This document shows positions 16,435 to 39,626 of a stretch of 64,000 nucleotides of DNA, piece after piece; positions within the stretch are counted from its first letter, which is position 1; each line of letters starts with the position of its first letter. Below the pieces are notes generated by a model. It saw nothing but the letters and a program-made list of their open reading frames with translations. It searched no databases and had not been told where the DNA came from. This stretch comes from Acidimicrobiaceae bacterium. Lineage in GTDB: Bacteria; Actinomycetota; Acidimicrobiia; Acidimicrobiales; Aldehydirespiratoraceae. The DNA lies in contig VXTM01000042.1 in NCBI GenBank assembly GCA_009837445.1, positions 10,155-74,154 of the forward strand, in the 5' to 3' direction. Made by a program: the position numbers and the translations under genes.

Positions 16435-17886
16435 CTAGTCGGCGTGGATCAGGGTCTTCAGGTCGCTGTGGAAGTCGAGGGCATGGTCGCCGCCCTCGCG
16501 GCCGATGCCGGAGAGGCCGCAGCCGCCGAAGGGGGCGGCTAGGTCGCGCACTAGGAAGGTGTTGGTCCACACGATCCCGGCCCGCACCTCCCGGCCCACC
16601 CGTTCGGCCCGATCGGCTGATCCGGTGTAGACGATGGCCGACAGGCCGTAGCGGGTGGAGTTGGCCAGCTCCACGGCCTCGGCCTCGCTGGCGAACGTCT
16701 GGAGGGTGAGCACGGGGCCGAAGACCTCGCTCTGGACGATCTCAGAGTCGTTGGAGGCGGGTTCGATAAGGGTGGGCTCGTAGTGGAGAGAATCTGGACG
16801 GCGGTGGCCGCCCCACACGATGGTGTCGCCCGCGGCCCGAGCCCGGTCGACGAAGGCCTCCACCCGGGCCAGGTGGTCCGGGTGGACGATGGGGGCGATG
16901 GTGGTGGCGTCGTCGCGGCTGTCGCCCAGCACGTGGGCCTCGGTGCGGGCCCTCAGCGCCGCTAGGAACTCGTCGCGCACCGAGCCCTCCACCAGCAGCC
17001 GGGTCCCGGCCAGGCACACCTGGCCCGAGTCCTCGTACTGAGCTGAGGCCTGCTTGGCAGCCGAGTCAAGGTCGCAGTCGGCGAACACGATGAGGGGACC
17101 CTTGCCGCCCAGTTCGGCGGTGAAGGGCACGATGTTGGCCGCGGCCGCCGTGCCGATGCGGCGGGCCGTCTCCGGTGAGCCGGTGAAGCTGATGCGCCGC
17201 ACCCTCGGGTCGGCCGTGAGGGCCGCGCCGACCTCGGAGCCGATGCCCTGCACGAGGTTGAACGCGCCGGCGGGCAGGCCGGCCTCCACTGTCAGGTCGG
17301 CCAGCATCGACGCCGACAGCGGCGACCACTCGGCCGGCTTGAGCACCACGCTGTTGCCCGCGGCCAGCGCCGGGGCCACCTTCCAGGTGGCCAGCATGAA
17401 CGGCGCGTTCCACGGGGTGATCACCACCGCGGGCCCGGCCGGCATGCGCTGGACGGTGTGGGTGGTGCCCCGCACCGGCCAGCGGGGGTCGGCGTGGGCT
17501 TCGGCCATGTCGGCGTAGAACCGGAAGTTCAGCGCGCCCCGGGCCACCAGGCGCTCCCGCATGGAGCGGTGCAGGAACCCCATGTCGAGCGTCTCCACCA
17601 GAGCGATGTCGTCATTGCCGGCCTCGATCAGGTCTGCCACCCGGCGCATGGCGGCAGCCCGCTCGCCCACGGGTAGCGCGCTCCACTCGCCGAAGCCGTC
17701 GACGGCCGCGCTCACGGCCCGCTCGGCGGTGGCCGCGTCACCGCGGGCCACGTCGGCAAGCTTGCGGTCCCAGTCCAGCGGTGAGCGGCACTCGAAGGTG
17801 TGCACCGCCGCGACTCGCTCGCCGCCGATCAGATGGTCGACGCTTATCTCTACACCGCCGACGGCGACCCGCGGCGAGGCGGTCAT
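16435..17886 (-). CDS. Aldehyde dehydrogenase (HpaE-like)
   Basis: This 483-residue NAD(P)-dependent aldehyde dehydrogenase should oxidise an aldehyde to an acid in the cytosol. The active-site Cys is C291 in GQVCLAG, the general base Glu is in AELGGKGP (near 258), and ITPWNAPF and FTGSPETARRIG mark the cofactor domain. Its stop-start overlap with the FAH-family gene (TGATG) means the two are translated together. That pairing is typical of meta-cleavage pathways for homoprotocatechuate-like compounds, where an HpaE-type enzyme oxidises the ring-cleavage semialdehyde and an HpaG-type enzyme acts later. The exact substrate is inference from context. It is the last gene of the liv operon. Confidence 0.88.
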   Translation of the reverse strand: MTASPRVAVGGVEISVDHLIGGERVAAVHTFECRSPLDWDRKLADVARGDAATAERAVSAAVDGFGEWSALPVGERAAAMRRVADLIEAGNDDIALVETLDMGFLHRSMRERLVARGALNFRFYADMAEAHADPRWPVRGTTHTVQRMPAGPAVVITPWNAPFMLATWKVAPALAAGNSVVLKPAEWSPLSASMLADLTVEAGLPAGAFNLVQGIGSEVGAALTADPRVRRISFTGSPETARRIGTAAAANIVPFTAELGGKGPLIVFADCDLDSAAKQASAQYEDSGQVCLAGTRLLVEGSVRDEFLAALRARTEAHVLGDSRDDATTIAPIVHPDHLARVEAFVDRARAAGDTIVWGGHRRPDSLHYEPTLIEPASNDSEIVQSEVFGPVLTLQTFASEAEAVELANSTRYGLSAIVYTGSADRAERVGREVRAGIVWTNTFLVRDLAAPFGGCGLSGIGREGGDHALDFHSDLKTLIHAD

Positions 17887-18773
17887 CAGCTGTCGTCCTC
17901 CAAGGCTGACTGGTAGTGGCGGGCGCCCGGTCCCCGGGGTGCCCGCTCGCCCCGGTGCTCCCAGTCGCCGCCCATGGCGGTGGAAACCACCTCCTCGCTG
18001 TCCGACGGCTGGGCGCCGACGTCGGAGCGCACCGGCTCGGGGCCGGCCACGATGGTGTTGGTCAGGGAGCCCAGACCCTCCACCTCCACGGTGACCACAT
18101 CGCCGGGCACCACCGGGCGCGAGTTGGCCGGCGTGCCCGACAGCACGAGGTCGCCGGGCACCAGCGTGATGGTGCGGGCCAGGTCGGCCACCAGGTAATG
18201 CATGTCCCATTCCATCTCGCCGGTGTTGCCGTCCTGGCGGACCTCGCCGTTCACCAGGGTGCGGATCTGCTTGCCGCGGAAGTCCCAGCCGGTCACCAGT
18301 GCCGGTCCCACCGGGCACAGCGTGTCGCTGCCCTTGACCCTGAGCATCGACCCGGCGTCGGTGTCGCGGAAGTCGTGCAGCCCGTAGTCGTTGGCCACCG
18401 TGTAGCCCGCGATGTAGTCGCCGGCCTCGCCGGCCGGCACGTTGCGGCAGGTCCGGCCGATGACGATGCCGATCTCGCCCTCGTAGTTGAGCCACCGGCA
18501 CGGCTCGGGCCTCACCACGTCGGCACCGTGGGCGTTGAGAGCGGTGATCGGCTTGTGGAAGTAGGTGGGGGCGGGCGGCAGCCGGGTCATGAACTCATCC
18601 ACCCGGCTGGAGTAGTTCAGGTGGACGCAGATGATCTTGGTCGGCTCGCACGGCGGTAGGTGCACCGCTTCGGCCGCCGGCATTCGCCGGCCGTCGCGGG
18701 CCACCAGTTCATCGTCCTGCCGCTCGACGGCGACGGCGTACCCGTCGAGCAGAATGCGGCGGTACTCGGTCAT
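17886..18773 (-). CDS. Fumarylacetoacetate hydrolase family enzyme (HpaG-like isomerase/decarboxylase)
   Basis: This 295-residue protein has the FAH fold. The metal-binding acidic residues are in NYEGEIGIVIG and VANDYGLHDFRD, with PVGPALVTGWDF, GDLVLSGTPAN and a TVEVEGLGSLTN tail. In meta-cleavage pathways such enzymes isomerise or decarboxylate 2-hydroxymuconate derivatives, and other family members hydrolyse acylpyruvates. Which applies here cannot be decided from sequence. A strong AGGAGG site precedes the ATG at 18773. It follows the livMG gene by 33 bp on the same strand and is coupled to the aldehyde dehydrogenase by a TGATG overlap. Confidence 0.87.
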   Translation of the reverse strand: MTEYRRILLDGYAVAVERQDDELVARDGRRMPAAEAVHLPPCEPTKIICVHLNYSSRVDEFMTRLPPAPTYFHKPITALNAHGADVVRPEPCRWLNYEGEIGIVIGRTCRNVPAGEAGDYIAGYTVANDYGLHDFRDTDAGSMLRVKGSDTLCPVGPALVTGWDFRGKQIRTLVNGEVRQDGNTGEMEWDMHYLVADLARTITLVPGDLVLSGTPANSRPVVPGDVVTVEVEGLGSLTNTIVAGPEPVRSDVGAQPSDSEEVVSTAMGGDWEHRGERAPRGPGARHYQSALEDDS

Positions 18774-18806: not shown

Positions 18807-20681
18807 TCAGCCGGTCTCCGTGATCGCGGTCGCGCCGAGATAGGCAGCCTGGACCTGCGGGTCGGCGTGGATCTCCTCGGGGGTTCCGGCTGCGATCACA
18901 CGGCCCTGGTCGAGGCAGTAGATGCGGTCGCACACCCCGGTGATGAAGGCCAGGTCGTGGTCGATCACCACCACCCCGGCACCCACCGCCGAGGCCAGGG
19001 CCCGCACCTCGTCGATCATGGCGACCGACTCGACATTGCTCATGCCGCTGGTGGGCTCGTCGAGCAGGATGTAGACGGGCGACAGCGCGGCGGCCCGCAC
19101 CAGTTCCAGGCGGCGGGCGTTGCCGTAGTCGAGCTCGCGGGCCCGGCGGTCTCGCAGCTCCCACAGCCCCGCATGGACGAGGAGTTGCTCAACGGTGGGG
19201 CGGTCGCCGCCGGGCCGGTGCCGGGATGCGACCAGCGCGGCGATGTTGACGTTCTCCCGCACGGTGAGCGCCGGGAACAGCCGCAGGTTCTGGAATGTGC
19301 GGGCCAGTCCGGCCCTGGCAACCTCGAAGGGCTCGGAGCCGGTGATGGTGCGAGCCTCGGGCCCTGCGGCGGACTGCTCGGTGAGGGTGGCCGAGCCCTC
19401 GGTGCCCTCCACCAGCCCGGTGACCACGTTGAGCAGGGTCGTCTTGCCCGCGCCGTTGGGTCCGATGAGGCCCACCACCTCGAGGTTGGACGCCTCCAGC
19501 CCGGCCCGCTCGAGGGCCCGGAAGCCGCCGAAGTCGACGGTGATGTCGACCGCGCTCAACTGGGCCGGTTCCGGGGCCGGCGCGTCCTGGAGCGGGGCCG
19601 GCATGGCCTCGGGCCGGCCGAGGCGCTTGCGCAGCCAGTGGTCGACCTCCCAGTCCTCGATGAGGCCCCTGGCCCTGAAGATCATGAAGCCCAGCATCGA
19701 CCCGCCCAGCACGATGTCGGTGAGCCCGGGCCGCAGCACGATGTCGAGAATGTCTGCCGGGCCGCCATCGATCTCGACGTCGGCGAGATGCCGGGTGGTC
19801 TCGTTGACGACGGTCATGAGGGCCACACCGAGCACCGAGCCGGCGATGCTGTTGCGCCCGCCGACGATCAGCATCACCAGGGTGAGCAGGGTGTAGTCGA
19901 AGAAGAAGGTCGACGGGGCCACCGACCCGAGCTGGAACACTCGCAGCGACGCCGCCACCGAGATGATCGCCACCGAGAGAAGGAGAGCCACCATCTGCCC
20001 CCGGGCCGGGTTGATGCCCATAGCCCGGGCGGCCAGGTCGTCCTCGCGGGCTGCCTGGGCCATGCGCCCTATACGGCTGCTCTTGAACAGCCGGGCCAGC
20101 ACGATGGCCCCGATCAGGGCCAGAAAGACCCACAGGCGGCTGTCGAGTCCCCGGCCGACCGAGAAGGAGATCCCGTTGCGGCCGCCGGTGAGGTCGGCGT
20201 AGGCCCCGCCGACCTCGTGGACCATGAACAGCAGGGCGAGCGTGATGACCGTCGCCGCCACGGCGCCCGACTTGGCTCCCGATCGGGCAAGGCCCAGCCC
20301 GACCACAAGCCCGACGACCACCGTGATGACGATGGCGGCGGCCGCGGCCACCACCGGATTGAGCGACACTCCGTCGAGGCCGAGGGGCACGTCCGGGACG
20401 ATCCGCGCCTTGCGCTCGACCGACGTGGCCAGCAGAGCGAAGGCGTACCCGCTGATGGCCGCGAACCCCATGTGTCCGAACGACAGCACGCCGGTGTTGC
20501 CGATGTAGATCTGCAGGCCGATCACCATGATGGCGTTGATGAGCATCTGCGTGACCAGGATGTCGCGGGTCGGCGCGCCGCCCGAGGCGTAGGCCAGTCC
20601 GCCCAGCACGAGCACCGCGAACAGCACAGCCGAGCCGGCCAGCTGCGAGCCGACCCGGTTCGACAGCAGTCCACGCATCAC
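18807..20681 (-). CDS. Fused branched-chain-type ABC permease and ATPase (LivM-LivG fusion)
   Basis: This 624-residue protein joins two transporter subunits that are usually separate. Residues 1 to about 345 are a LivM permease (MQIYIGNTGVLSFGH-like segment near residue 55, EDDLAARAMGIN coupling region). Residues about 375-624 are a LivG-type ATPase with Walker A GPNGAGKTT (about 407-415), a signature-like LDYGNARRLELVRA and Walker B VYILLDEPTSGMSN. It should sit in the membrane with the ATPase on the cytosolic face and pair with LivH and LivF. It starts 31 bp after the livH stop. No frameshift is needed to read through the junction, so the fusion is real and not an assembly break. Confidence 0.9.
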   Translation of the reverse strand: MMRGLLSNRVGSQLAGSAVLFAVLVLGGLAYASGGAPTRDILVTQMLINAIMVIGLQIYIGNTGVLSFGHMGFAAISGYAFALLATSVERKARIVPDVPLGLDGVSLNPVVAAAAAIVITVVVGLVVGLGLARSGAKSGAVAATVITLALLFMVHEVGGAYADLTGGRNGISFSVGRGLDSRLWVFLALIGAIVLARLFKSSRIGRMAQAAREDDLAARAMGINPARGQMVALLLSVAIISVAASLRVFQLGSVAPSTFFFDYTLLTLVMLIVGGRNSIAGSVLGVALMTVVNETTRHLADVEIDGGPADILDIVLRPGLTDIVLGGSMLGFMIFRARGLIEDWEVDHWLRKRLGRPEAMPAPLQDAPAPEPAQLSAVDITVDFGGFRALERAGLEASNLEVVGLIGPNGAGKTTLLNVVTGLVEGTEGSATLTEQSAAGPEARTITGSEPFEVARAGLARTFQNLRLFPALTVRENVNIAALVASRHRPGGDRPTVEQLLVHAGLWELRDRRARELDYGNARRLELVRAAALSPVYILLDEPTSGMSNVESVAMIDEVRALASAVGAGVVVIDHDLAFITGVCDRIYCLDQGRVIAAGTPEEIHADPQVQAAYLGATAITETG

Positions 20682-20712: not shown

Positions 20713-21603
20713 TCACACCCGCTCCGCCGATCTGACGTACAGCAGTCCCTGGGGCCGGAAGATGAAGAAGAGCGCGATGAGGGCGAACACCACCCCGTCG
20801 GTGATGCCGACCAGGTCCTCGGGCAGCCAGGACCTCAGCAGCACCTCCGACACCCCCAGCAGCAGCCCCCCGTACACGGCGCCCTGCATGTTGCCGAGGC
20901 CGCCGATGATGGCAGCCAGGATGCCCTTGAGCAGCGGGCTGAGGCCGGTAGTGGGGCGGGCCTGGCCGGTGCGCATCAGGAAGAAGATCGCGGCGATCCC
21001 GGCCAGGGCGCCGGCCAGGATGAACGCCTGGCGGATCACCTTGTTGCTGCGCACGCCCATGAGCCGGGCGGCGTCGAAGTCCTCGGCCGCGGCCCGCAGC
21101 GAGATGCCGAACATTGTGCGCTGCAGCAGGTACACCGTCACCGCCATCGTGGCCGCGGTGGCGCCGATCACCACGACATCGATGATCTGGATGTTGAGAT
21201 CGCCCACCGACCAGACCCGGTCGGCCCAGTCCGGGCGGGGAAAGCTGCGCACGCTGGCGCCCATGGTCATCACGAAGATGGCCTGCACCAGGAAGTGCAC
21301 CGCGAACGAGGTCAGCAGCATGGTGAAGTCCGAGGATCCCCGCACCCATCGGAAAGCGACGAACTCGATAGCGACCGAGGTCCCCACTGCGGCCAAGAAG
21401 ATCAGCGGCGCCGCCGCCCACCACGCCCACCCGGCGGTGACGACCACCCCGAAGGCCACGTAGGCGCTCACGGTGATGAGTTCGCCGTGGGCGAAGTTGA
21501 CCATGTGCATCACGCCGAAGATCACCGCGATCCCCAGCGCCAGCAGGGCGTAGATGGAGCCCCGGCCCAGCCCGTCGATCAGGCTCTGGAGAAGATCGAT
21601 CAT
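20713..21603 (-). CDS. livH: Branched-chain-type ABC transporter permease (LivH)
   Basis: This 296-residue membrane protein is the second permease subunit of the liv-type importer. The N-terminal IYALLALGIAVIFGVMHMVN and FAHGELI segments are typical LivH landmarks, and RAAAEDFDAARLMGV marks the coupling loop. The ATG at 21603 overlaps the livF stop as ATGA, which fixes the start. The open frame continues upstream, but only out of frame with livF. Together with LivF, the LivM-LivG fusion and LivK it makes a complete importer. Such importers take up branched-chain amino acids but also amides, urea or aromatic acids. Confidence 0.92.
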   Translation of the reverse strand: MIDLLQSLIDGLGRGSIYALLALGIAVIFGVMHMVNFAHGELITVSAYVAFGVVVTAGWAWWAAAPLIFLAAVGTSVAIEFVAFRWVRGSSDFTMLLTSFAVHFLVQAIFVMTMGASVRSFPRPDWADRVWSVGDLNIQIIDVVVIGATAATMAVTVYLLQRTMFGISLRAAAEDFDAARLMGVRSNKVIRQAFILAGALAGIAAIFFLMRTGQARPTTGLSPLLKGILAAIIGGLGNMQGAVYGGLLLGVSEVLLRSWLPEDLVGITDGVVFALIALFFIFRPQGLLYVRSAERV

Positions 21604-22337
21604 GTCCGCTCGCTGCTGGACGGATCCGGGTTCCCGGAGACGCCCACGAAGGTGTCGAAGAGGTCCTCGCGGGCCAGCAGCTCCGACGCCGGGCCCTCGG
21701 CCGCGATCTCTCCGGTGCGCAGCACGTAGGCCCGGTCGGCCACCTCCAGCAGCCGGGTGGCGTTCTGCTCGACCACCAGCATGGTGCGCCCCTCGGTGCG
21801 CAGGCGACCGATGAGGTCGAACACGAAGTCGACCAGCACCGGGGCCAGGCCCAGCGACGGCTCGTCCATCAACACGATGCGGGGACTGCTCATCAGCGCC
21901 CGGGCGATGGCGAGCTGCTGGGCCTCGCCCCCGGACAGGTAGCCGGCCGCGGTGGCCCACTTGTCCTTGAGCACCGGGAACAGCTCCACCACCTCGTCCA
22001 GGCGCTCCGATCGCTCATCGGCGGCGGAGGTCACCCCTCCGATGCGCAGGTTCTCGACCACCGTCATCTGGGCGAACAGCCGGCGGTGCTCGGGCACCAG
22101 GGCCAGGCCGGCCCTGAGCATCCGGTCGGGGCTATAGCCGGTGACCGGCCGCCCGTCGAGGGACACTTCGCCCTCAGCGGGGCGCAGCAGCCCGGCGACG
22201 GTGTTGAGCAGTGTGGTCTTCCCCGCTCCGTTGGGGCCGATGAGGCCGACCACCTCGTTGGCCCCGACGGCGAGACTCACCCGGCGCAGCGCCGAAATGG
22301 CCCCGTAGCGGGTGGTGAGCCCGGATACGTCGAGCAT
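21600..22337 (-). CDS. livF: Branched-chain-type ABC transporter ATPase (LivF)
   Basis: This 245-residue ATPase has Walker A GPNGAGKTT (about 34-42), Q-loop region, signature YLSGGEAQQLAIARAL and Walker B RIVLMDEPSLGLAP, all of the LivF type. It energises uptake with the ATPase half of the LivM-LivG fusion. The ATG at 22337 is preceded by TAGGGT 6 nt upstream, so an internal leaderless promoter is possible. It also lies only 52 bp after livK, so it can be read from the livK promoter. Confidence 0.93.
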   Translation of the reverse strand: MLDVSGLTTRYGAISALRRVSLAVGANEVVGLIGPNGAGKTTLLNTVAGLLRPAEGEVSLDGRPVTGYSPDRMLRAGLALVPEHRRLFAQMTVVENLRIGGVTSAADERSERLDEVVELFPVLKDKWATAAGYLSGGEAQQLAIARALMSSPRIVLMDEPSLGLAPVLVDFVFDLIGRLRTEGRTMLVVEQNATRLLEVADRAYVLRTGEIAAEGPASELLAREDLFDTFVGVSGNPDPSSSERT

Positions 22338-22389: not shown

Positions 22390-23736
22390 CTACATCCTGG
22401 CGGCGAGGGTGGTCTCGCCGTTGACGATCTGCAGGATGTACACCGGCGTGTCGGGCGTGCCGTCGGTTCCGGCGTAGCCGATGGTGTCGGTGACCGCCTC
22501 TACCCCGGTTAGCTGCGAGATCGCCTCGGCGATGGCGAGCGGGTCGGTCGATCCGGCGTCGATGAAGCCCTGGATGGCCACGGTGATGGCGTCACCGGCG
22601 AGGGCCGCAAAGCCGGGCGCCTCACTGGGCATGCCCATGGCCGCCAGCCCGTCGTTGAGGCGCTCGTAGCGGTTGCCGTCGGTGCCGAAGCCGTGGTCGG
22701 TCCAGTAGACGCCCTCGTTGTTGTCGATGACGGTGATGCCGCTCACCCCGAAGGCGTCGGCGCCGAAGTAGGTGATGGAGTCGATGCCCCGCTCCTCGAT
22801 GGCGCCGCGCAGCGCGTCGAGCTGCGGGGCGATCATCGCCGTGTAGAGGATCTCGGTGCCGTCGGCCACCCCGGCCACCTCGTTGGCGTGCGACGCGAAG
22901 TCGAAGTCCTCAAACGGCACGTAGCTCACGTCGAGCACCAGCTCGCCGCCCAGCTCCTCGAACTTGGCCGCGAACGTCTCGGGGTTGTACCCGAAGTACG
23001 GACCCTCCGACGAGAACGTGATGGCCCGGGTGATGCCGTTGTCGATGGCGAACTGGGCCGCGGCCTCAGCCTGCTGGGTGTCGCTGAAGGTGGTCATGAA
23101 CGAGTAGATCGACGGGTCCGGCAGCACCGGCTCGGTCGACGCCACGAAAATCACCGCCCGGCTGGCGTTGACGGTCTGCAGCACCGCGTCACCGGTGTCG
23201 GCGAACGGCGGGCCCAGGATCACATGGGCCCCGGCATCGAGCAGGTCCGCGGTGGCCCGCTGGGACACCTCGGGATCGCCCTGGACGTCCTCGATGATGA
23301 ACGCCACGGGGTGCCCGCCCACGCCGCCGGCGCAGTTGATCAACGACACGTAGTACCCGCCGGCCTCCGAGATCGGGATGTCGGCGAAGCCGCCCACCTC
23401 GGACAGGTCCGCCGCGAATCCGATGATGAACGGATCCCCAGTCGGCGGCGCCGCGCAGTTGTCGAGATCGGCGTCAAGGGCGGCGTCCACATCGAAGCTC
23501 ATCTCCATGGCCATGTCCTCTTCGGCCATGGGCTCCTCTTCGGCCATGGGCTCCTCTTCAGCCATCGGCTCCTCTTCAGCCATCGGCTCCTCTTCAGCCA
23601 TGGGCTCCTCTTCGACTGCGGGAGCGGCCGTGGTAGCAGCGGGGGCCTCGGCGGCGTCGTCCTCGTCGTCGCCGCAAGCGGCAGCCACCAGCGCCAACAC
23701 GGCGAGCGAAGCGACAAGCAGCTTGGTGATTCTCAT
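22390..23736 (-). CDS. livK: Liv-type substrate-binding lipoprotein with acidic repeat linker
   Basis: This 448-residue receptor has a short signal peptide with lipobox (VAAAC, Cys near residue 20). An acidic linker with five EEEPMA hexapeptides follows, then a type I periplasmic-binding fold (FIIGFAADLSEVGGFA, GHPVAFIIEDVQGDP, VILGPPFADTGDAV). It should bind the imported compound outside the cell. The ATG at 23736 has GGAGGA 6 nt upstream. An upstream in-frame extension to 23943 would run through the marR promoter and is rejected. The gene heads the livK-livF-livH-livMG-FAH-aldehyde dehydrogenase run. Its -10 element directly abuts the palindrome shared with the divergent marR gene. The ligand is unknown. 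Confidence 0.92.
   Translation of the reverse strand: MRITKLLVASLAVLALVAAACGDDEDDAAEAPAATTAAPAVEEEPMAEEEPMAEEEPMAEEEPMAEEEPMAEEDMAMEMSFDVDAALDADLDNCAAPPTGDPFIIGFAADLSEVGGFADIPISEAGGYYVSLINCAGGVGGHPVAFIIEDVQGDPEVSQRATADLLDAGAHVILGPPFADTGDAVLQTVNASRAVIFVASTEPVLPDPSIYSFMTTFSDTQQAEAAAQFAIDNGITRAITFSSEGPYFGYNPETFAAKFEELGGELVLDVSYVPFEDFDFASHANEVAGVADGTEILYTAMIAPQLDALRGAIEERGIDSITYFGADAFGVSGITVIDNNEGVYWTDHGFGTDGNRYERLNDGLAAMGMPSEAPGFAALAGDAITVAIQGFIDAGSTDPLAIAEAISQLTGVEAVTDTIGYAGTDGTPDTPVYILQIVNGETTLAARM
23521..23610 (-). repeat. 18-bp tandem repeat, five copies, in livK
   Basis: Five 18-bp units encode the EEEPMA linker of the LivK lipoprotein. Copies fall into sub-types that differ at one or two bases (for example gggctc against cggctc), so the array is older or more diverged than the one at the left edge. 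Confidence 0.95.
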
Positions 23737-23796
23737 TGGATCCTCCAGAGATCTTTGCGGACCTTCTTCCGCGTTTCCGTCTTGTGGACTTCTAGC

Positions 23797-23802
23797 ATAA
23801 TA
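23797..23802 (-). promoter_or_regulatory. -10 element of the livK operon
   Basis: TATTAT on the minus strand directly abuts the 20-bp palindrome at 23803-23822. A repressor bound there would cover the -10/-35 spacer. Confidence 0.6.
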
Positions 23803-23822
23803 TCCGTTTGGTAGCAAACGAA
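23803..23822. promoter_or_regulatory. Candidate MarR operator between livK and marR
   Basis: The core CGTTTGGTAGCAAACG (23805-23820) is an inverted repeat of CGTTTG with a 4-bp centre. The same core occurs at 27512-27527 and, slightly degenerate, at 39629-39644. Its position between divergent marR and livK suggests that MarR controls both itself and the transporter operon. Confidence 0.65.
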
Positions 23823-23836
23823 ATCGGTGATACGTA

Positions 23837-24340
23837 GTGCAGAATCGAGCCGACCCGCGCCTGCTCGACGCCGAGCGCCTCATCCAGGAGCGCCTCGGCG
23901 GCCGGCGCCTGGACTTCGACTCGATGTTGGCGGTGTCGAACATCTACCGGGCCGCCACCGCGGTCCGCCGCCGGGCCGAGAAGGGGGTGCTGTCGGAGTT
24001 CGGTCTCTCCTGGGGCGGGTTCACGACACTCTGGGTGCTGTGGGTCTGGGGCGAGATGCAGTCCGCCGACCTTGCCGACGAGTGCGACCTCTCGAAGGGG
24101 ACGCTGACCGGCGTGGTGAAAACGCTGGAGAAGCAGGGCTTCGTCAAGCGGACACCGGTCGCGGCCGACCGCCGGAAGGTGACCGTCTCTCTCACCGGAG
24201 CCGGGCTCGAGACGATCGAGCAGCTGTTCCCGCGATTCAACCTCTACGAGGGCGAGATGGTGGGCAACCTCTCGGCGAGCGAGAAGCGGGAGCTGGCCGA
24301 GCTCCTCCGCCGGGTCATCGTCACCGCCGGCTCGAGCTGA
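23837..24340 (+). CDS. MarR-family transcriptional regulator
   Basis: This 167-residue protein has a MarR winged-helix domain with helices at the ends for dimerisation. MQSADLADECDLSKGTLTGV is the helix-turn-helix (about residues 75-94) and RTPVAADRRKVTVSLT is the wing (about 112-127). MarR proteins usually bind a palindrome overlapping their own promoter and release it on binding a small, often aromatic, ligand. Here the GTG start at 23837 lies 14 bp after the 20-bp palindrome. Because copies of this palindrome control several nearby operons, this protein is the best candidate regulator for the whole catabolic region. It converges on the amino-acid-decarboxylase gene. Confidence 0.9.
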   Translation: MQNRADPRLLDAERLIQERLGGRRLDFDSMLAVSNIYRAATAVRRRAEKGVLSEFGLSWGGFTTLWVLWVWGEMQSADLADECDLSKGTLTGVVKTLEKQGFVKRTPVAADRRKVTVSLTGAGLETIEQLFPRFNLYEGEMVGNLSASEKRELAELLRRVIVTAGSS

Positions 24341-24359: not shown

Positions 24360-25760
24360 TCAGGCGCTGGCGTCGATCAGATCCCAGAGCGCTTCGACAT
24401 GGGATCGGGCCGTCCACGTGGAGCCCACCGAGATGCGGGCGTAGCGCCTTCCGTCGGCGTCCGAGGCGGTGATGTAGAACCGCCCGTCGTCGTTGATGCG
24501 ATCGACCAGTTCATCGGTCGCCGCGTTGCCGTCGACATGTGCGAATGACACCAGCGCGAACGGCGTGGGCGCGATGGTGGCGAGCTTGCTGTGGGCGTCG
24601 ATGCGGTCGGCCAGTTCCCGGGCCCAGGCGACGTGGATGCGGATCATCCTGCGGAGGCCCGCCGCGCCGAAGCAGCGCAGCACGAACCACAGCTTCAGCG
24701 CCCGGAACGGCCGGCCGAGCGGGCCGTGCCAGTCGCGGTAGTCGATCACCCGGCCCGACTCGGACGCCTCGTTGCGCAGGTAGGGCGGCAGCACGCTTAG
24801 AGCCTCGATGAGCGGCCGGCGGTCGGCCACCCACATCACCGAGCAGTCGAGGTTGGTGGCCAGCCACTTGTGGGGGTTGAACGTGTAGCTGTCCACCACC
24901 TCCAGGCCGTCCTGGTGATGGCGGAACTCCTCACAGATCATGGCCGAGCCCGCGTAGGCCGCGTCGACATGGTGCCACATCTGCTCGGCCCGGGCGATCT
25001 CGCCGAAGCGCCGCACCGGATCGACGCCGGTGGTGCCGGTGGTGCCGACCGCCGAGCACACGAAGGCCGGGACGAGACCGGCCCGGCGGTCCTCGGCAAC
25101 CGTCGCGGCGAGCACGTCGGGTCTGGCCGCGAACTCGTGGTCGGTTGCCAGCAGCCTGATGTGCCCGAAGCCGGCCATGCGGGCGCCCTTCTCGATCGAG
25201 GAGTGGGCGTGACTCGACGTGTAGGCGACCATGTCCTTCGGGCCTGCTCCGCTACGCAGCAGGCACTGCTCGCGGGCCACCACCAGCGCGGTGTGCGTCG
25301 AGGCTGACGCGCCCGACTGCAGCACCCCTCCGCCCGCGCCGGTCGTCTTCCATTCCTGGGGCGCGCCGAGGAGGTCGACGAGCCAGTCGAGCACGTGGGA
25401 CTCGATCTCCGTCGCGGCCGGCGAGGTGGACCACAACATCCCCTGCACTCCCATGCCGGCCGCGGCCAGCTCGCCCAGGATCGCGGGCGGTGACGACTGG
25501 GCCGGGAAGTAGGCGAACCATCCCGGGTGCTGCCAGTGGGTCAGCCCCGGGGCTACCACCCGGTCGAGGTCGGCGAGGACGGCGTCGAAGGCCTCGGGGT
25601 CCTCCGGGGCGCGGCCGGGGAGCTTGGCCCGCACCTCGCCCGGCTGCACGGGCTCGCGCACCGGGCGGTCCTCCAGGCCGCCGAGGTAGTCGACGACCCA
25701 GTCGACGAGGGCGTAGGCGTTGCGCCTGAACGCCTCGAGGTCGAGCGGGTCCGGCTCCAA
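24360..25760 (-). CDS. PLP-dependent aromatic-L-amino-acid decarboxylase family protein
   Basis: This 466-residue group II decarboxylase should remove CO2 from an amino acid, most likely an aromatic one, to give an amine. The PLP lysine is K298 in NPHKW, and HVDAAYAGS holds the Asp that contacts the pyridine nitrogen. HWQHPGWFAYFP near residue 75 is the substrate-pocket signature of the aromatic decarboxylase group. I accept the TTG start at 25760 because AGGAGG lies 7 nt upstream and no better start fits the family N-terminus. It is the third gene of an SDR-LLM-decarboxylase operon. Exact substrate (DOPA, Phe, Tyr, Trp or other) is not determined. Confidence 0.88.
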   Translation of the reverse strand: MEPDPLDLEAFRRNAYALVDWVVDYLGGLEDRPVREPVQPGEVRAKLPGRAPEDPEAFDAVLADLDRVVAPGLTHWQHPGWFAYFPAQSSPPAILGELAAAGMGVQGMLWSTSPAATEIESHVLDWLVDLLGAPQEWKTTGAGGGVLQSGASASTHTALVVAREQCLLRSGAGPKDMVAYTSSHAHSSIEKGARMAGFGHIRLLATDHEFAARPDVLAATVAEDRRAGLVPAFVCSAVGTTGTTGVDPVRRFGEIARAEQMWHHVDAAYAGSAMICEEFRHHQDGLEVVDSYTFNPHKWLATNLDCSVMWVADRRPLIEALSVLPPYLRNEASESGRVIDYRDWHGPLGRPFRALKLWFVLRCFGAAGLRRMIRIHVAWARELADRIDAHSKLATIAPTPFALVSFAHVDGNAATDELVDRINDDGRFYITASDADGRRYARISVGSTWTARSHVEALWDLIDASA

Positions 25761-25780: not shown

Positions 25781-26716
25781 CTAGTCGCCCAGACGGGCGC
25801 AGTAGTCGACCATCCGCCGGCAGACGGCGGGCACCTCCCGGAGGTCGTCGGTGTATTGCGACGGCTTCATGCAGAACAGCGTGTAGCCCGCGGCCACCTG
25901 GTCGTCGATGGCGGCCATCGCCTCGTCGACGTCGGCCACGGCGTCGGGGGAGGCGAAGGTGGCCCGTGTGCCGCCCACCAGCTCGATCTCGGAGATGTCC
26001 CGCCCGACCTGGGCCAACCCTTCGGCCAGCTGGGCCAGATCGTCGGCAGTGGGCGCACCGAAGGGATGGAACCCGCTACCGAAGCGGGCCATCCTGCGGA
26101 TCAGAGCCGGGTGCATCCACTCGCCGCCGAACCACATGCGGGGCCCCTCCGGTCGCCAGGCCTTGGGCTCGCAGTACGCGTCGGCGAAGCTGAAGTACTG
26201 CCCCTCGAAGCTGGCGGGTGAGCCGGCCCAGAGCCGCGACATGGCCTCCAGGTGCTCGTCGAGGATGCGGCCCCGCTCCGCGAAGGGCACCCCGTGAGCC
26301 TCGTACTCGGCCCGCTGCCACGAGACGGTGGGCTGCACCACCAGCCGGCCCTCGCACAGCAGGTCGATGGTGGCGAGGTCCTTGGCGAGCAGGATCGGGT
26401 GCCGCAACACCGGGATGATGGCGCCGGCCACCACCCGGACCCGGCTGGTGGCCGCGGCCACCGCGGCCAGGGTGGCCACCGAGCTGGGCCACGGTGTCAT
26501 CGGGTCCTGGTTGCCGATGGCGGCGTACATCCGGGGATTGCTCATCAGCCCACCGGAGGCGGCGTCGGGGCCGAGCATGGTCTGCTCGCTGATCATCACC
26601 GCGTCGAAGCCGCTGTCCTCGGCCATGCGAGCCAGCTCGACCAGCCCCCGCATGTCGCGGGGGTCGAGCATCGTGTGGTTCTCGGTGAGGATCATCAACA
26701 TCCGTGGCGGCGCCAC
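25781..26716 (-). CDS. LLM-class flavin- or F420-dependent oxidoreductase (paralogue 1)
   Basis: This 311-residue luciferase-like (alpha/beta barrel) protein starts with MLMILTENHT and has QGRLVVQPTVSW-like and WFGGEWMHPALIRR segments typical of the family. LLM enzymes act as two-component monooxygenases with FMNH2 or as F420-dependent dehydrogenases, and sequence alone does not tell which. The GTG at 26716 lies one base after the SDR stop (TGACGTG), so it is translationally coupled. A close paralogue lies at 31.2-32.2 kb on the other side of the divergent operon. Confidence 0.85.
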   Translation of the reverse strand: MAPPRMLMILTENHTMLDPRDMRGLVELARMAEDSGFDAVMISEQTMLGPDAASGGLMSNPRMYAAIGNQDPMTPWPSSVATLAAVAAATSRVRVVAGAIIPVLRHPILLAKDLATIDLLCEGRLVVQPTVSWQRAEYEAHGVPFAERGRILDEHLEAMSRLWAGSPASFEGQYFSFADAYCEPKAWRPEGPRMWFGGEWMHPALIRRMARFGSGFHPFGAPTADDLAQLAEGLAQVGRDISEIELVGGTRATFASPDAVADVDEAMAAIDDQVAAGYTLFCMKPSQYTDDLREVPAVCRRMVDYCARLGD

Positions 26717-26717
26717 G

Positions 26718-27476
26718 TCAGCGCTCCAGCATGTCGAAGGGGCCCAGCGCAACCGCGCCGCCGTCGAGCCGGAACGACACTCCGGTCGCGAAGCGTCCCG
26801 CCGGGGCCACCAGGTAGTGCACGAGGGCCGCGATCTCGTCGGGCTTCCCGGCCCGGCCCGCGATGTTCACGGAGACGCCGGCCGCGTCGAGCTCGCGGAT
26901 GGCATCGGCGGCCATCGGCGTGTCGACGATGCCCGGATCGACCTGCGTGACCCTGATGCCGTCGGCCCGCCACTCCTTGGCCAGCGCCACCGTGACCGCG
27001 GCCAGCCCGGCCTTGGTCGCCCCGTACACGGCGGCTCCCGCGGAGGGCCGCACCGCGTCGACGGAGCCGATCATCACGACGGCCGAGTCGTCGCCGGCGG
27101 CTAGGTGGGGGTGGGCCAGCTGGCAGAGCCGCAGCGGCGCCCACAGGTTGAGCCCGACCAGCCCGTCGAAGTACCGGCGGTCCATCTCACCGAGGGGGAG
27201 CCAGTCGCCCCGGCCGGCGTTGTTGACCAGGATGTCGAGCCCGCCCAGCTCAGCGACCGCGCCGTCGATCACCCCGTCGACGGCCCCGGCGTCGCTGAGA
27301 TCGGCCGCGAGGGGGCGCACCGAGCCGCCCGCCTCGGGAACCCGTCCCGACCTAGACACCGCCACCACGCTGGCGCCGGCACCGGCGAGGCGGGATGCGA
27401 TTGCGGCCCCGATGCCGGCCGACGCACCGGTGACCACTGCACGCCTGCCGGTCAGGTCGAAAGCCGCATCAGGCAC
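26718..27476 (-). CDS. SDR-family oxidoreductase in the decarboxylase operon
   Basis: This 252-residue short-chain dehydrogenase has GASAGIG cofactor binding, NNAGRGD, an active-site Ser and YGATKAG as the YxxxK pair, and ends with a GVSFRLDGG motif. It is the first gene of the SDR-LLM-decarboxylase operon. I chose the GTG at 27476 because a TATCGT -10 element ends 6 nt upstream, giving a leaderless start. An in-frame TTG at 27524 would lie inside the shared operator and is less likely. A role in oxidising or reducing a pathway intermediate is inference. Confidence 0.87.
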   Translation of the reverse strand: MPDAAFDLTGRRAVVTGASAGIGAAIASRLAGAGASVVAVSRSGRVPEAGGSVRPLAADLSDAGAVDGVIDGAVAELGGLDILVNNAGRGDWLPLGEMDRRYFDGLVGLNLWAPLRLCQLAHPHLAAGDDSAVVMIGSVDAVRPSAGAAVYGATKAGLAAVTVALAKEWRADGIRVTQVDPGIVDTPMAADAIRELDAAGVSVNIAGRAGKPDEIAALVHYLVAPAGRFATGVSFRLDGGAVALGPFDMLER

Positions 27477-27482: not shown

Positions 27483-27488
27483 ACGATA
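27483..27488 (-). promoter_or_regulatory. -10 element of the SDR-LLM-decarboxylase operon
   Basis: TATCGT on the minus strand ends 6 nt before the GTG at 27476. It lies 21 bp downstream of the palindrome at 27510-27529, so the palindrome would overlap the -35 region of this promoter. Confidence 0.5.
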
Positions 27489-27509: not shown

Positions 27510-27529
27510 ATCGTTCGGTCCCAAACGAT
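27510..27529. promoter_or_regulatory. Candidate MarR operator between two divergent catabolic operons
   Basis: ATCGTTCGGTCCCAAACGAT is an imperfect 20-bp palindrome with the same core as the marR/livK site. It directly abuts the -10 of the rightward operon and sits near the -35 of the leftward operon, so one bound dimer could control both. Confidence 0.65.
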
Positions 27530-27535
27530 TAGGCT
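27530..27535 (+). promoter_or_regulatory. -10 element of the rightward catabolic operon
   Basis: TAGGCT directly follows the operator and ends 6 nt before the GTG at 27542, which suggests a leaderless message. Confidence 0.55.
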
Positions 27536-27541: not shown

Positions 27542-28357
27542 GTGGCCGAGCTCCAGGGCTTCATGTATCCGCGGACGCCGTCCGGGGTCGCCGGGATCGT
27601 GCCCGCTCCCCCCTGGCACTACTCGGGCGACATGCTCACCGTTGAGTTCCGCACCGATCCGGACCGGGTGGCCGAACTCCTTCCCGACCCCCTGGAGCCG
27701 GCCCCAGACGATCCCGGCGCGGTGGCCCTGGTCTGGGCCGAGTGGCAGAGCTGCAGCGACACCTTCGACGAGCTGCTCGACCCGGTGAGGGCCCAGTACC
27801 GGGAGGTCTTCGCGGTGGTGCGTTGCCGGTTCCGGGGCGAGACCTACAGCCGGGCGGCCTACATCTGGGTGGACAAGGACTTCGCCATGGCCCGGGGACA
27901 CTTCCAGGGCTACCCCAAGAAGATGAGCGAGATAGCCATGACCCGACCGGTGACGGTGGGCCGGGCCGGACCCCGGCTGGAGCCGGGTGGCCGCTTCGGG
28001 GCCACGCTGAGCACTTGGGGCCGGCGCATTGCCGAGGCCCGCTTCACCATCACCGGCACCGCCGACGCGCCCGGCTTCGTGAACGGCCATCCGATGCTGC
28101 ACAGCCGCCAGATGCCCGCCATGGAGGCCGACGGGAGCGACTCGCTCGACGAGCTGGTCACCATGAGGGGCTACGACGCCGACCTCGGCCCGGTGTACTC
28201 GGGCGACGCCGAGCTGGTGCTGCCTGCCTGTCCCACCGAGGAGCTGCACCAGTTGCAGCCGGTCGAGATGATCGGCGGCTACTACCGCCAGGTCGGCATG
28301 TCCATGGCCTCGGGCACCACTCTGTGGGCTGCCCCCAACCCCAAGGCCGACCCGTGA
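27542..28357 (+). CDS. Acetoacetate decarboxylase-like protein
   Basis: This 271-residue protein belongs to the acetoacetate decarboxylase-like superfamily. GHFQGYPKKMSEI (about residues 120-132) contains the Lys pair in which one Lys forms the Schiff base and its neighbour lowers its pKa in the true decarboxylase. Members also act as cyclases, aldolases or hydratases on other keto acids, so the reaction here is open. It is the first gene of an operon with a P450, an extradiol dioxygenase and a class I amidotransferase, all with overlapping stops and starts. The GTG at 27542 is probably the first base of the message. Confidence 0.82.
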   Translation: MAELQGFMYPRTPSGVAGIVPAPPWHYSGDMLTVEFRTDPDRVAELLPDPLEPAPDDPGAVALVWAEWQSCSDTFDELLDPVRAQYREVFAVVRCRFRGETYSRAAYIWVDKDFAMARGHFQGYPKKMSEIAMTRPVTVGRAGPRLEPGGRFGATLSTWGRRIAEARFTITGTADAPGFVNGHPMLHSRQMPAMEADGSDSLDELVTMRGYDADLGPVYSGDAELVLPACPTEELHQLQPVEMIGGYYRQVGMSMASGTTLWAAPNPKADP

Positions 28358-29634
28358 GCACGCTCACAGCCAGGTACGTAGACGGATACCTCGACGACCA
28401 CGGCGACGACGACGCCGACCTAGCGTCGCACGACTCGTTCACGTCGGGCGTGCCCCACGCCACCTTCACCCGCCTGCGCCTCCAGGACCCGGTGCACTGG
28501 ACCCCCGAGAGCGAGGGCTCCGGCTTCTGGTCGATCACCCGCTACCGCGACGCACTGGCCGTCAGCCGCGACGTGGAGACCTTCACCTCCTCCCGGGGCA
28601 TCCGCCTCGAGGAGATGGACGACGACGAGCTCGAGGCCCGCCGCACCATGATGGAGCTCGACCCGCCCGAGCACACCCGGCTGCGCCGGCTCGTCAACCG
28701 GGGGTTCACCCGCCGCACCGTCGAGTCCTATGAGGACGCCATCCGGGCGCTGGCAGCCGAGGTGCTCGACGAGGCGCTGACCTCGGACGCCTTCGACTTC
28801 GTCACCAAGGTGGCCGCCAGGCTGCCGATGCGGATGCTGGGGCGCCTGCTGGGCACCAGTGACGAGGACGGCCACCAGCTGGTGGAGTGGGGCGACGCCT
28901 TCCTGGGCAACAGCGACCCCGAGTTCACCACCCACGTCGTGGACACGGCCGACACCGAGGAGTTCCGGCTGATGCCGTTCCGCAGCCCGGCCGCGGCCGA
29001 GGTGTTCGAGTACGCCGAGCACCAGGCGGCCGAGCGCCGGGCCTGCCCCCGCGACGACGTGATCACCCAGCTGCTGGCCCCCACCCGCGACGGTGAGCCG
29101 CTGACCGACCTGGAGTTCAAGAACTTCTTCCTGCTCCTGATCGCGGCCGGCAACGACACCACCCGCTACACCATGACCCACGGGCTGCGCACGATGATGC
29201 ACCATCCCGAGCTGTGGCGGGCCTGGCGGGCCGACCCGTCACTCACCGCGACCGCGGTGGAGGAGGTGCTGCGCACCAGCGCGGTGACCATGCACTTCCG
29301 CCGCACCGCCACCCGGGCCGTCAACGTGGGCGGAAAGGAAATCGCACCCGGGGACAAGGTGGTGATGTGGTTCTGCTCGGCCAATCACGACGGCGACGGC
29401 TTCCCTAACCCCTGGCGCTTCGACTTGGCCCGGGAGCCCAACGACCACATGGCTTTCGGGCGCAACGGCCCCCATCTTTGCCTGGGCGCCTGGCTGGCCC
29501 GCATGGAGGCCCGGCTGGTGTACGAGGAGCTGATGAAACGGGTGGACCGCCTCGAGCCCGACGGCGAGCCCGAGTACCTGCGCTCCAACTTCATCGCCGG
29601 CATCAAGCACCTTCCCGTGCGGGTCGTGGCCTGA
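28354..29634 (+). CDS. Cytochrome P450 (operon member)
   Basis: This 426-residue soluble bacterial P450 has the I-helix AAGNDTTR, the EEVLR (ExxR) motif and the heme-binding FGRNGPHLCLG with the axial ligand C376. It should use electrons from a ferredoxin or reductase, and none is encoded nearby. The reaction is probably a hydroxylation or dealkylation of the pathway substrate. The GTG at 28354 overlaps the preceding stop as GTGA, and its own stop overlaps the next start as TGATG. It resembles the P450 at 50.2-51.6 kb in overall layout, including the ending YLRSNFI then KHLPV. Confidence 0.93.
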   Translation: MSTLTARYVDGYLDDHGDDDADLASHDSFTSGVPHATFTRLRLQDPVHWTPESEGSGFWSITRYRDALAVSRDVETFTSSRGIRLEEMDDDELEARRTMMELDPPEHTRLRRLVNRGFTRRTVESYEDAIRALAAEVLDEALTSDAFDFVTKVAARLPMRMLGRLLGTSDEDGHQLVEWGDAFLGNSDPEFTTHVVDTADTEEFRLMPFRSPAAAEVFEYAEHQAAERRACPRDDVITQLLAPTRDGEPLTDLEFKNFFLLLIAAGNDTTRYTMTHGLRTMMHHPELWRAWRADPSLTATAVEEVLRTSAVTMHFRRTATRAVNVGGKEIAPGDKVVMWFCSANHDGDGFPNPWRFDLAREPNDHMAFGRNGPHLCLGAWLARMEARLVYEELMKRVDRLEPDGEPEYLRSNFIAGIKHLPVRVVA

Positions 29635-30494
29635 TGGGGTCGATGGTGGGCGCCGCGCTGGTGTCGCACGTGCCGCCGCTGGTGATGCCCGAGCACGAGC
29701 GCCGGGCCCTGAACGGCGGCGAGGACACCTCCCTGTTCGCGGGTCTGCACGCGCTGCGGGCCGAGCGGCTCGCCCCGGTGGCGGCCGACACCGTGGTGGT
29801 GGTCGACACCCACTGGTTCACCACCATCGAGCATGTCGTCTCCGCCCACGAGCGTCGCAAGGGCCTGTACACCTCCGATGAGCTGCCCCGGGGCATGAGT
29901 GCCATGCCCTACGACATGCCGGGCGACCCGGAGCTGGCCCATGCCTTCGCGGCTGCGGCGGAAGGCCGCGACGACACCTGGGTGACCGCCATCGACGACC
30001 CCCACCTGCCGGTGCACTACCCCACCGTCAACCTGCTCGGCTTCCTGCAGGGCGCCGAGCGCTGGATCTCAATGGGCGTGTGCCAGACCGCCGAGGCCGC
30101 CGACTTCCTGCTGGCCGGCGAGCTGCTGGCCGCCGCCGTGGCCGGACTGGACCGCCGGGTGGTGATCCTGGCCAGCGGCGGGCTCAGCCACCGGTTCTGG
30201 CCGCTGCGCCAGTTCCGCGACCACGAGGGCGCCGACCCCGACCTCCACGTCCGCACCCCGGAGGCCGCCGCCGCCGACCGCAAGGTGCTGGCCTGGATGG
30301 CTGAAGGCAACCACGCGGCAATCATCGACTTCCTGCCCGAGTACTCCGGCCACGCCCCCGAGGGCTACTTCGGGCACTACCTGATCATGGTGGGTGCGCT
30401 GGGGGGAGCGGCCTGCACCGCCAAGGGCACCCAGTTCGGCCAGTACGAGTCGGTGTCGGGAACCGGCCAGGCCCACGTATGGTTCGACCTGTGA
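29634..30494 (+). CDS. Class III extradiol ring-cleavage dioxygenase-like protein (LigB/HpaD fold)
   Basis: This 286-residue protein has the LigB-type fold. The N-terminal ALVSHVPP histidine and the VVVDTHWF histidine are the expected Fe(II) ligands, and ASGGLSHRFWP and the EGYFGHYLIMVGAL segment complete the family pattern. Such enzymes open catechol-type rings next to the hydroxyls (for example homoprotocatechuate 2,3-dioxygenase). With the HpaG/HpaE-like genes at 16-18 kb this suggests a meta-cleavage route. The ATG at 29634 overlaps the P450 stop by one base. The ring substrate is inferred only as a catechol derivative. Confidence 0.85.
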   Translation: MGSMVGAALVSHVPPLVMPEHERRALNGGEDTSLFAGLHALRAERLAPVAADTVVVVDTHWFTTIEHVVSAHERRKGLYTSDELPRGMSAMPYDMPGDPELAHAFAAAAEGRDDTWVTAIDDPHLPVHYPTVNLLGFLQGAERWISMGVCQTAEAADFLLAGELLAAAVAGLDRRVVILASGGLSHRFWPLRQFRDHEGADPDLHVRTPEAAAADRKVLAWMAEGNHAAIIDFLPEYSGHAPEGYFGHYLIMVGALGGAACTAKGTQFGQYESVSGTGQAHVWFDL

Positions 30495-31219
30495 ATCGAT
30501 CCCGGCAGGCGCTAGTGCTCGCACACGAGCCGCTGGGCACCAGCGGGCTGGTGGGCGAGCGGCTGGCGCAGCGCGGCTACGACGTGCACGAGCACGTGGT
30601 GACCGCCGACCTGGACCGTCCCAACGACGCCGCGCCCTTCCCCGACCTCGCCGACTACGACATGTTGGTGCCGATGGGCTCGGTCCGCTCGCTCACCAAC
30701 ACCGGAGAGATCGACACATGGATCTTCGAGGAGCTCAACATGGTGCGAGCCGCCCACGCCCGGGGTACGCCGATGCTCGGCGTGTGCTTCGGGGGGCAGC
30801 TGCTGGCGGCAGCCCTCGGCGGTTCTGTCGAGCAGGCGCCGGAGCCGGAGATCGGCTGGTACGAGATCCATGAGCCCGACGGCTCGCTCAACGGGGCGCA
30901 CAACCCGCTCGGACCCGGACCGTGGTTCCAGTGGCACCACGACCGGTTCACCCCGCCGCCGGAAGCCGAGGTGCTGGCGGTCAACGAGAACGCCGTGCAG
31001 CTGTTCCGGTTGGGCCGCTGCGTCGGCACCCAGTTCCACCCCGAGGTGACCTACGACCACGTCAAGAGCTTCCTGACGGGAGCCGACGACGAGTACCTGG
31101 CCGCGCACGGGCTGAACCGGCAGACACTCCTCGAGGGCATCCGCCATCACGAGGACCGCAACTCCCGCCAGTGCACGGCCTTGGTCGACTGGTTCCTCGA
31201 CGAGGTGGCTACGTCTTGA
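30491..31219 (+). CDS. Class I glutamine amidotransferase-like protein
   Basis: This 242-residue protein has the class I GATase triad: C99 in GVCFGGQ and H183/E185 in GTQFHPEV. In GMP-synthase-like or gamma-glutamyl hydrolase-like members this domain either supplies ammonia from glutamine or cleaves gamma-glutamyl bonds. It stands alone, without a fused synthetase. In aniline-type pathways a stand-alone class I GATase accompanies a glutamine-synthetase-like enzyme, and such an enzyme is encoded at 37-38.3 kb. The GTG at 30491 overlaps the dioxygenase stop as GTGA. It is the last gene of the operon and converges on the next LLM gene. Confidence 0.82.
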   Translation: MNRSRQALVLAHEPLGTSGLVGERLAQRGYDVHEHVVTADLDRPNDAAPFPDLADYDMLVPMGSVRSLTNTGEIDTWIFEELNMVRAAHARGTPMLGVCFGGQLLAAALGGSVEQAPEPEIGWYEIHEPDGSLNGAHNPLGPGPWFQWHHDRFTPPPEAEVLAVNENAVQLFRLGRCVGTQFHPEVTYDHVKSFLTGADDEYLAAHGLNRQTLLEGIRHHEDRNSRQCTALVDWFLDEVATS

Positions 31220-36988: not shown

Positions 36989-38347
36989 TTAGTGGTAAGG
37001 CAGGTACTGCTTCAGCTCCCACTCGGATAGGGGCTCGGTGCCACCGATGGCGTCCCAGTCATCGACGGCCTCATCGCCGGCCCCGGCGGTGTAGCGGTCC
37101 CACTCGGCCCGCTTGTTGAACACGAAGTTGTCGCACAGCTCCTTGCCGACCGCCTCGCACAGGGCCTCGTCGGCCTCCATGTCGTCGAGGGCCGCGCTCA
37201 GGCTGTGTGCGCAGTGGACGTCGGTGTTCACCTCGTCGAAGCCGTCGGTGGTCATGGGCTCGGGGCAGTCCAGCCCGCCGACGACTCCGAGACGGGCGGC
37301 CTGCAGCACGGTGGCTATCAGCGTGTGGACGTTGGCCGCGCCGTCGCCGATGCGGCTCTCGATGCGCATGTGGGGGCCGGCGCCCCGGGGCACGCGGTTG
37401 CCGGCGCAGCGGTGCTCGACGCCCCAGTTGGCCCAGTATCCGTTGAGCTCGCCGGGGCGCAGGCGCCGGTAGGCGTTGACGGTCGGTGCGGCCAGCGCGG
37501 TCATGCCCAAGTGGTGGTGGATGAGGCCCGCCATGCAGCCTCTGGCCAAGTCGGACATGCCGTGGACGCCCCCAGCGTCCGACATGGCGTTGTTGCCCTG
37601 CGCGTCGACCAGCGAGAAGTTCACGTGGACGCCGGTGCCGGAGATGCCGGGGAACGGCTTGCCCAGGAAGGTCAGGTCGAGGTCCAGGGGCTGGCCCGTG
37701 GCGTCGGTTGCGGTCAGCACCGTCTCGCGGGCCAGCAGCCGGAACAGGAAGGCGTTGTCGGCGGCCCACATGGCGTCGCCGTACTCGAGGGTCAGCTCGA
37801 ACTGGCCCTCGTCATACTCGGCGTTGACGGACTCCATGGCGATGCCGGAGACCTCCGCCCGGCGCACCAGCTTGGTGATGACACCGCTGGGATCGGACCC
37901 GACCCCGGTCCCGTAGACCATGGAGCGCGGCGTCTCGTAGGGCCGGGGGCTCTCCAGTCCTCCGCTGAACACGTAGGCCTCGAGCTCGATGCCGACCTTG
38001 GGGGTGTAGCCCATGGCCTCCCACTCGGCCACCGCCCGGCGCAGCGCCTCGCGGGGCGACTCCGGCAGGGCCTCGCCGTGCATTGACAGGTCGCCGATGA
38101 CGACCCCGGTGGCGTCGTCGTCCCAGCCTTGGCGGATGTGGGTGGTGTCGAAGCTGATCTGGGTGTCGGGCAGGCCGTCTAGGAGGTAGGCGCCCGGTGC
38201 GGGCGCCATGCTGCGGTCATAGCCGAGCCCGAACACAGTCACGCAGTGGCTGGTGCCCTTGTGGGCCAGCCGGGCCGGCAGGTACTTGCCCCGGGCTAGC
38301 CCGAGGTGGTCGGGCCAGAGCGCCCGGATGCGGTCCCAGTCGGTCAT
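36989..38347 (-). CDS. Glutamine synthetase-family protein (gamma-glutamyl amine ligase-like)
   Basis: This 452-residue protein has the glutamine synthetase fold. GIELEAYVF, NAEYDEGQFEL, SGTGVHVNFSL, AAPTVNAYRRL and RIESRIGDGAANVH mark the metal, ATP and glutamate sites. It is shorter and more diverged than assimilatory GlnA. Family members of this kind join glutamate to other amines (polyamines, ethanolamine, isopropylamine, aniline) in the first step of their breakdown. A PuuD-like gamma-glutamyl hydrolase gene two genes away fits that role. The ATG at 38347 has AGGGGAG upstream. A weaker copy of the MarR-type palindrome lies 28-47 bp upstream. The amine is not known. Confidence 0.85.
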   Translation of the reverse strand: MTDWDRIRALWPDHLGLARGKYLPARLAHKGTSHCVTVFGLGYDRSMAPAPGAYLLDGLPDTQISFDTTHIRQGWDDDATGVVIGDLSMHGEALPESPREALRRAVAEWEAMGYTPKVGIELEAYVFSGGLESPRPYETPRSMVYGTGVGSDPSGVITKLVRRAEVSGIAMESVNAEYDEGQFELTLEYGDAMWAADNAFLFRLLARETVLTATDATGQPLDLDLTFLGKPFPGISGTGVHVNFSLVDAQGNNAMSDAGGVHGMSDLARGCMAGLIHHHLGMTALAAPTVNAYRRLRPGELNGYWANWGVEHRCAGNRVPRGAGPHMRIESRIGDGAANVHTLIATVLQAARLGVVGGLDCPEPMTTDGFDEVNTDVHCAHSLSAALDDMEADEALCEAVGKELCDNFVFNKRAEWDRYTAGAGDEAVDDWDAIGGTEPLSEWELKQYLPYH

Positions 38348-39620: not shown

Positions 39621-39626
39621 AGCGTA
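39621..39626 (-). promoter_or_regulatory. -10 element of the acyl-CoA dehydrogenase gene
   Basis: TACGCT on the minus strand ends 6 nt before the GTG at 39614 and abuts the palindrome at 39627-39646. Confidence 0.55.

Follow-up and report, generated by a model that had tools for sequence, protein, structure and literature searches.

A MarR-type regulator and a palindromic operator predicted to control nearby uptake and ring-cleavage genes in an Acidimicrobiaceae bacterium

Results

We found that a 16-bp palindrome with the consensus CGTTYGGTACCRAACG stands at several promoters in a 64,000-nucleotide stretch of DNA (the window). The palindrome is probably (about 88%, as judged from sequence comparisons) the operator of a repressor of the MarR family whose gene adjoins one of the copies. 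The repressor would control its own promoter and nearby genes for uptake and ring cleavage.

Operator sites in the window and in the genome

The initial annotation of this DNA had placed three 20-bp palindromes in the window, at 23803-23822, 27510-27529 and 39627-39646, and all three are there; their 16-bp cores (S1, S2 and S3) are given in Table 1. As it had proposed, S1 lies between the divergent marR and livK genes, and S2 lies between two divergent operons that begin with an SDR gene and with a gene for an acetoacetate-decarboxylase-family (ADC) protein. The core proposed as common to the three, CGTTYGGTNNCAAACG, is matched exactly by S1 and S2 but not by S3, which has two mismatches on its better (minus) strand. 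Relatives of the source genome carry the site before a glutamine-synthetase-like gene, and this pointed to a further copy in the window (S4) that is degenerate, weaker than S1-S3, and had been missed at first. Versions of S4 with one or two mismatches are found at the matching position in L123, L136 and L125.

We scanned the window and the 3.9-Mb genome for the pattern, allowing up to two or, in loose scans, up to three mismatches, with the reversed pattern as control. Allowing three mismatches, there were 8 matches in the window compared to 6.8 expected, which is at chance level, and 71 in the genome compared to 78 for the reversed pattern. Because the loose scans did no better than chance, they cannot support a genome-wide regulon. 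With at most two mismatches, there were only four places in the genome: S1-S3 and one on contig C4. The latter was rejected as a site, as it is inside a NuoL-like coding frame.

A more discriminating result was obtained with a matrix, a sequence-only profile made from 28 operator and promoter sequences of relatives, none of them from the window (one of the 28 is common to the near-identical genome G198 and to G199/G200). Over the 3.9 Mb, the matrix found S1-S3 on both strands with E values of 4.6e-5 to 0.48, and no other place in the whole genome up to E = 10. S4 was not recovered and its matrix score is negligible, so the case for it is its conserved position. That the matrix returned only three places, all in the window, indicates that the regulon in the source genome is small and local, and the three palindromes are real and very probably function as operators.

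Table 1. Predicted operators, promoter elements and genes of the cluster (window coordinates)
Feature	Position	Strand	Sequence or remark
Operator S1	23805..23820		CGTTTGGTAGCAAACG; common to divergent marR and livK
Operator S2	27512..27527		CGTTCGGTCCCAAACG; between divergent SDR and ADC operons, in ADC -35/-10 spacer
Operator S3	39629..39644		CGTTTGGTGCCAAATA on minus strand; in acyl-CoA dehydrogenase promoter spacer
Operator S4, degenerate	38377..38392		CTTTCGGAGCCGAACG; at -45 of glutamine-synthetase-like gene
ADC operon -10	27530..27535	+	TAGGCT; -35 TTGATC 27507-27512; leaderless GTG 27542
Acyl-CoA dehydrogenase -10	39621..39626	-	TACGCT; -35 TTGATC 39644-39649; leaderless GTG 39614
marR candidate -10	23798..23803	+	TAATAT; predicted, one base before S1
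livK candidate -10	23794..23799	-	TATGCT; predicted
SDR operon candidate -10	27483..27488	-	TATCGT; predicted, leaderless GTG 27476
marR, presumed regulator	23837..24340	+	PF01047, 167 aa, GTG start
livK, branched-chain-type substrate-binding lipoprotein	22390..23736	-	
livF, ABC ATPase	21600..22337	-	gene order kept in relatives
livH, permease	20713..21603	-	
livM-livG fusion	18807..20681	-	
FAA hydrolase family	17886..18773	-	predicted HpaG-like role
Aldehyde dehydrogenase	16435..17841	-	best NCBIfam model HpaE; start approximate
PLP-dependent decarboxylase	24360..25760	-	
LLM-class oxidoreductase	25781..26752	-	
SDR oxidoreductase	26718..27476	-	protein scanned as 26718-27473
ADC-family protein, MppR-like	27542..28357	+	
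Cytochrome P450	28357..29634	+	
LigB-type extradiol dioxygenase, HpaD-like	29631..30494	+	
Class I glutamine amidotransferase	30479..31219	+	
Glutamine-synthetase-like, gamma-glutamylamine synthetase type	36989..38347	-	under S4
Acyl-CoA dehydrogenase	38415..39614	-	

Behind its signal peptide, the LivK lipoprotein carries a low-complexity, acidic linker in which the unit EEEPMA is repeated (window 23490-23610). Of a 688-aa open frame at 16435-18501, the first 200 codons or so merely shadow the FAH gene, and the remainder is the aldehyde dehydrogenase. A ProV/W/X-like uptake system is found inside the catabolic cluster (window 32351-36954), and no operator copy was detectable at it.

Position of the sites relative to promoter elements

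The promoters of the ADC operon and the acyl-CoA dehydrogenase gene have the layout TTGATC-N17-TAnnnT-N6-GTG, with the operator filling the spacer. In both, 2 bp separate the core from TAnnnT, exactly 6 bp separate TAnnnT from the GTG, and TTGATC is 17 bp upstream. These are predicted to be leaderless promoters with an operator in the spacer, an arrangement that is conserved at ADC. Taking the ADC start codon (GTG or ATG) as +1, TAnnnT is at -12 to -7 and the core at -30 to -15. The window's -35 element, TTGATC, spans -35 to -30; several relatives have TTGAAT instead, shifted upstream by one base.

The initial annotation had described the same geometry a third time, at livK, with TATTAT as the -10 hexamer. 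This is certain only for ADC and acyl-CoA dehydrogenase; at livK, TATTAT is also 2 bp off but is broken in one close relative (L135). The stretch TAGCATAATATC at S1 contains the livK candidate TATGCT and, on the opposite strand, the marR candidate TAATAT. Each has the form TAnnnT in 8 of 8 sequences with this promoter (the window and seven relatives), and TATGCT itself is retained in all eight. TATGCT, 3 bp further from the site than the adjacent TATTAT, is the more likely -10 element of livK. With the candidate -10 element of marR, transcription of that gene would start inside S1. On the SDR side of S2, TATCGT-N6-GTG is found downstream and S2 is just upstream of the -35 region, which makes control of the SDR operon less certain.

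Conservation of the site in relatives

The site is conserved where its surroundings are not. At the ADC promoter of ten genomes, identity was 87% for the site, 84% for the -35 element and 100% for TA..T, compared to 25% (chance) for the upstream flank. Of the 20 other ADC genomes of the order, 12 had the site, with up to two mismatches, at position -29, -30 or -38 relative to the ADC start; in G170 there was none at the usual position and a palindrome at -95 instead. Close relatives, all of which are metagenome-assembled genomes, keep the palindrome before marR, and an equivalent of S1 is upstream of marR in relatives with a MarR 77-98% identical. This includes L035, L036 and L038-L040, in which livK is gone and the remaining intergenic region is unrelated. 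Distant genomes with a MarR 55-65% identical (G118, G034, G139, G024, G077, G107 and G171) have the site at marR as well. S3 is retained, among close relatives, only in the near-identical L121.

In relatives, the site also precedes liv transporters and the ADC-P450-LigB-amidotransferase operon, lies between marR and the FAH and aldehyde dehydrogenase genes (directly before that pair) and, in some, stands before PuuD. The PLP decarboxylase, LLM2 and alpha/beta-hydrolase promoters have no site of their own in relatives. Together with the matrix, this conservation supports the proposal that uptake, SDR-LLM-decarboxylase, P450-ring cleavage and acyl-CoA dehydrogenase genes form one regulon, to which the LLM, PLP decarboxylase, P450, ring-cleavage and aldehyde dehydrogenase genes would belong by virtue of operon structure.

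Gene content around the sites varies. Eight relatives (L127, L130, L132, L134, L137, L138, L155 and L158) have, elsewhere in the genome, a second liv operon with an identical CGTTCGGTAGCGAACG before livK, a site that is absent from the source genome. In G205 (L126:5979-13358), an inserted module separates the SDR promoter from the ADC promoter. The module comprises a third liv system, an amidohydrolase-like gene and a gene for a LuxR-type regulator, the last behind its own operator copy. In the near-identical genome G198 (L120:8430-14590), an insert of approximately 6 kb separates SDR from ADC, and SDR is without its site.

The MarR protein as probable reader of the operator

The presumed regulator has a MarR winged-helix domain (PF01047, 52.7 bits compared to a cut-off of 24.6), and the palindrome is in its own and neighboring promoters, as is typical of the MarR family. 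Its orthologues are in metagenome-assembled genomes of Acidimicrobiia and in 22 other genomes of the order. Seven of ten order-wide orthologues of 55-69% identity have a site (up to two mismatches) within 200 bp upstream of marR, compared to 2.9% of random control stretches. MarR was found in 17 of the 20 other ADC genomes and in 5 of the 177 without ADC (17 both, 3 ADC only, 5 MarR only, 172 neither). The Fisher p of about 2e-17, from a test that used 178 non-ADC genomes, overstates the association because shared ancestry is ignored.

In G118, G034 and G150/G176, the regulator and the targets lie on different contigs or at least 15 kb of DNA stands between them, and there the site is still common to both or kept at the targets. 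In G176/G150, with a MarR 69% identical, the liv and ADC promoters carry the site and marR does not. Read by eye, the recognition-helix stretch AKGTLTGM shows good conservation across the orthologues that carry a site, and it is altered in paralogues with different upstream palindromes, e.g., ACTTTGGGCCCAAACT (second copy in G171). The initial annotation had proposed a single MarR protein as the likely regulator; site and co-occurrence now strongly support, on comparative grounds, that the MarR encoded beside the palindrome would be the protein that reads it.

Discussion

Proposed mechanism and alternatives

We infer binding by MarR, repression rather than activation, the ligand and the extents of the operons. 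Without inducer, MarR would occupy CGTTYGGTACCRAACG both at the marR promoter and at nearby uptake and ring-cleavage promoters: between -35 and -10 at ADC and acyl-CoA dehydrogenase, beside or over the -10 element and start at livK, marR and the glutamine-synthetase-like gene, and just upstream of -35 at SDR. Bound there, it would exclude RNA polymerase. Release would probably be caused by an aromatic substrate or a ring-cleavage intermediate.

A different regulator might read this palindrome, which would still be the true operator of the gene set, with marR merely one of the targets. We consider this improbable. In G205, a LuxR-type gene is also behind such a site, and G070 has a site at ADC with no MarR match. 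However, G070 is fragmentary (80% complete), and its ADC gene is at the edge of a contig. The scanned proteins (a subset of the ORFs) of the window's cluster included no LuxR, and in two ADC genomes with no MarR match, G180 and G060, there is no site within three mismatches at ADC. In addition, the site is at the marR promoter across several families, and marR and ADC co-occur. That the sites are chance matches or a background repeat, as the three-mismatch counts in window and genome would allow, is hardly credible given a relatives' matrix that fits only three places in the genome and a site that is conserved while its flanks are not.

Activation by MarR from these sites seems slightly less probable still than a different reader. 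The operators of ADC and acyl-CoA dehydrogenase overlap the -35/-10 spacer, which is where steric repressors usually bind. Activators that act from a spacer are mainly known as MerR-type proteins that distort DNA with an over-long spacer, and the spacer here is the normal 17 bp. On the other side, Yersinia HpaR acts as an activator at one promoter, where its site is at -241 (PMC7180172). Repression by the MarR protein is the reading that we retain.

Possible function of the regulated genes

A meta-cleavage route similar to that for homoprotocatechuate is suggested by three products of the cluster: an HpaD-like ring-cleavage enzyme, an aldehyde dehydrogenase that most resembles HpaE, and the FAH protein encoded beside it. 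The P450, the ADC-like protein, the glutamine-synthetase-like enzyme, the amidotransferase and PuuD are outside the classical hpa route, and the idea that an amine substrate is gamma-glutamylated is a guess. On a tentative and rather doubtful view, many families of the order (Acidimicrobiia) share a dedicated MarR regulon for a so far undescribed route. The cell would import an aromatic amine, gamma-glutamylate it (glutamine-synthetase-like gene, amidotransferase and PuuD), hydroxylate it with the P450 and open it with the LigB-type dioxygenase.

For a catabolic module of a largely uncultured lineage, the analysis defines an operator, a regulator and a list of genes. The regulon unites uptake, P450, ring-cleavage and gamma-glutamyl genes that have no obvious connection, so the substrate should be easier to pin down. 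The operator could also become a biosensor part.

Comparison with known systems

A literature search for the exact palindrome string found no paper containing it among those searched, and the terms used returned no paper on Acidimicrobiia. The best NCBIfam match of the window's MarR is the family of Saro_0803 (NF053777), a MarR-like protein that controls an aromatic-cleaving gene, nov1 of stilbene cleavage, in Novosphingobium (PMC10046596). At 47.7 bits compared to a cut-off of 200, identity with Saro_0803 was rejected.

The closer parallel is HpaR, the MarR-family repressor of the hpa-meta operon in E. coli W and Yersinia: here too, a MarR gene is beside HpaD-, HpaE- and FAH-like genes and has a site at its own promoter. 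The regulator is not HpaR itself, with 45.6 bits compared to the 121.2 cut-off of the HpaR equivalog (TIGR02337) and a different operator, CGTTYGGTACCRAACG rather than the TTAA-N4-TTAA of the HpaR footprint (PMC7180172). The HpaD and HpaE models are likewise below cut-off (474.6 bits compared to 638 for HpaE), and P450, ADC-like, gamma-glutamyl and ABC-uptake genes are added. Because the neighbors resemble HpaD, HpaE and HpaG, the regulator may work like HpaR. Similar evidence (a palindrome, a regulator beside its targets and conservation) underlies comparative-genomic reconstructions of local catabolic regulons, e.g., of the IclR family (PMC8222616). In substance, the initial proposal is correct, and its support is now stronger than when it was made: the type of switch is ordinary, this palindrome and gene set appear to be undescribed, and the regulon is of a familiar kind and itself new.
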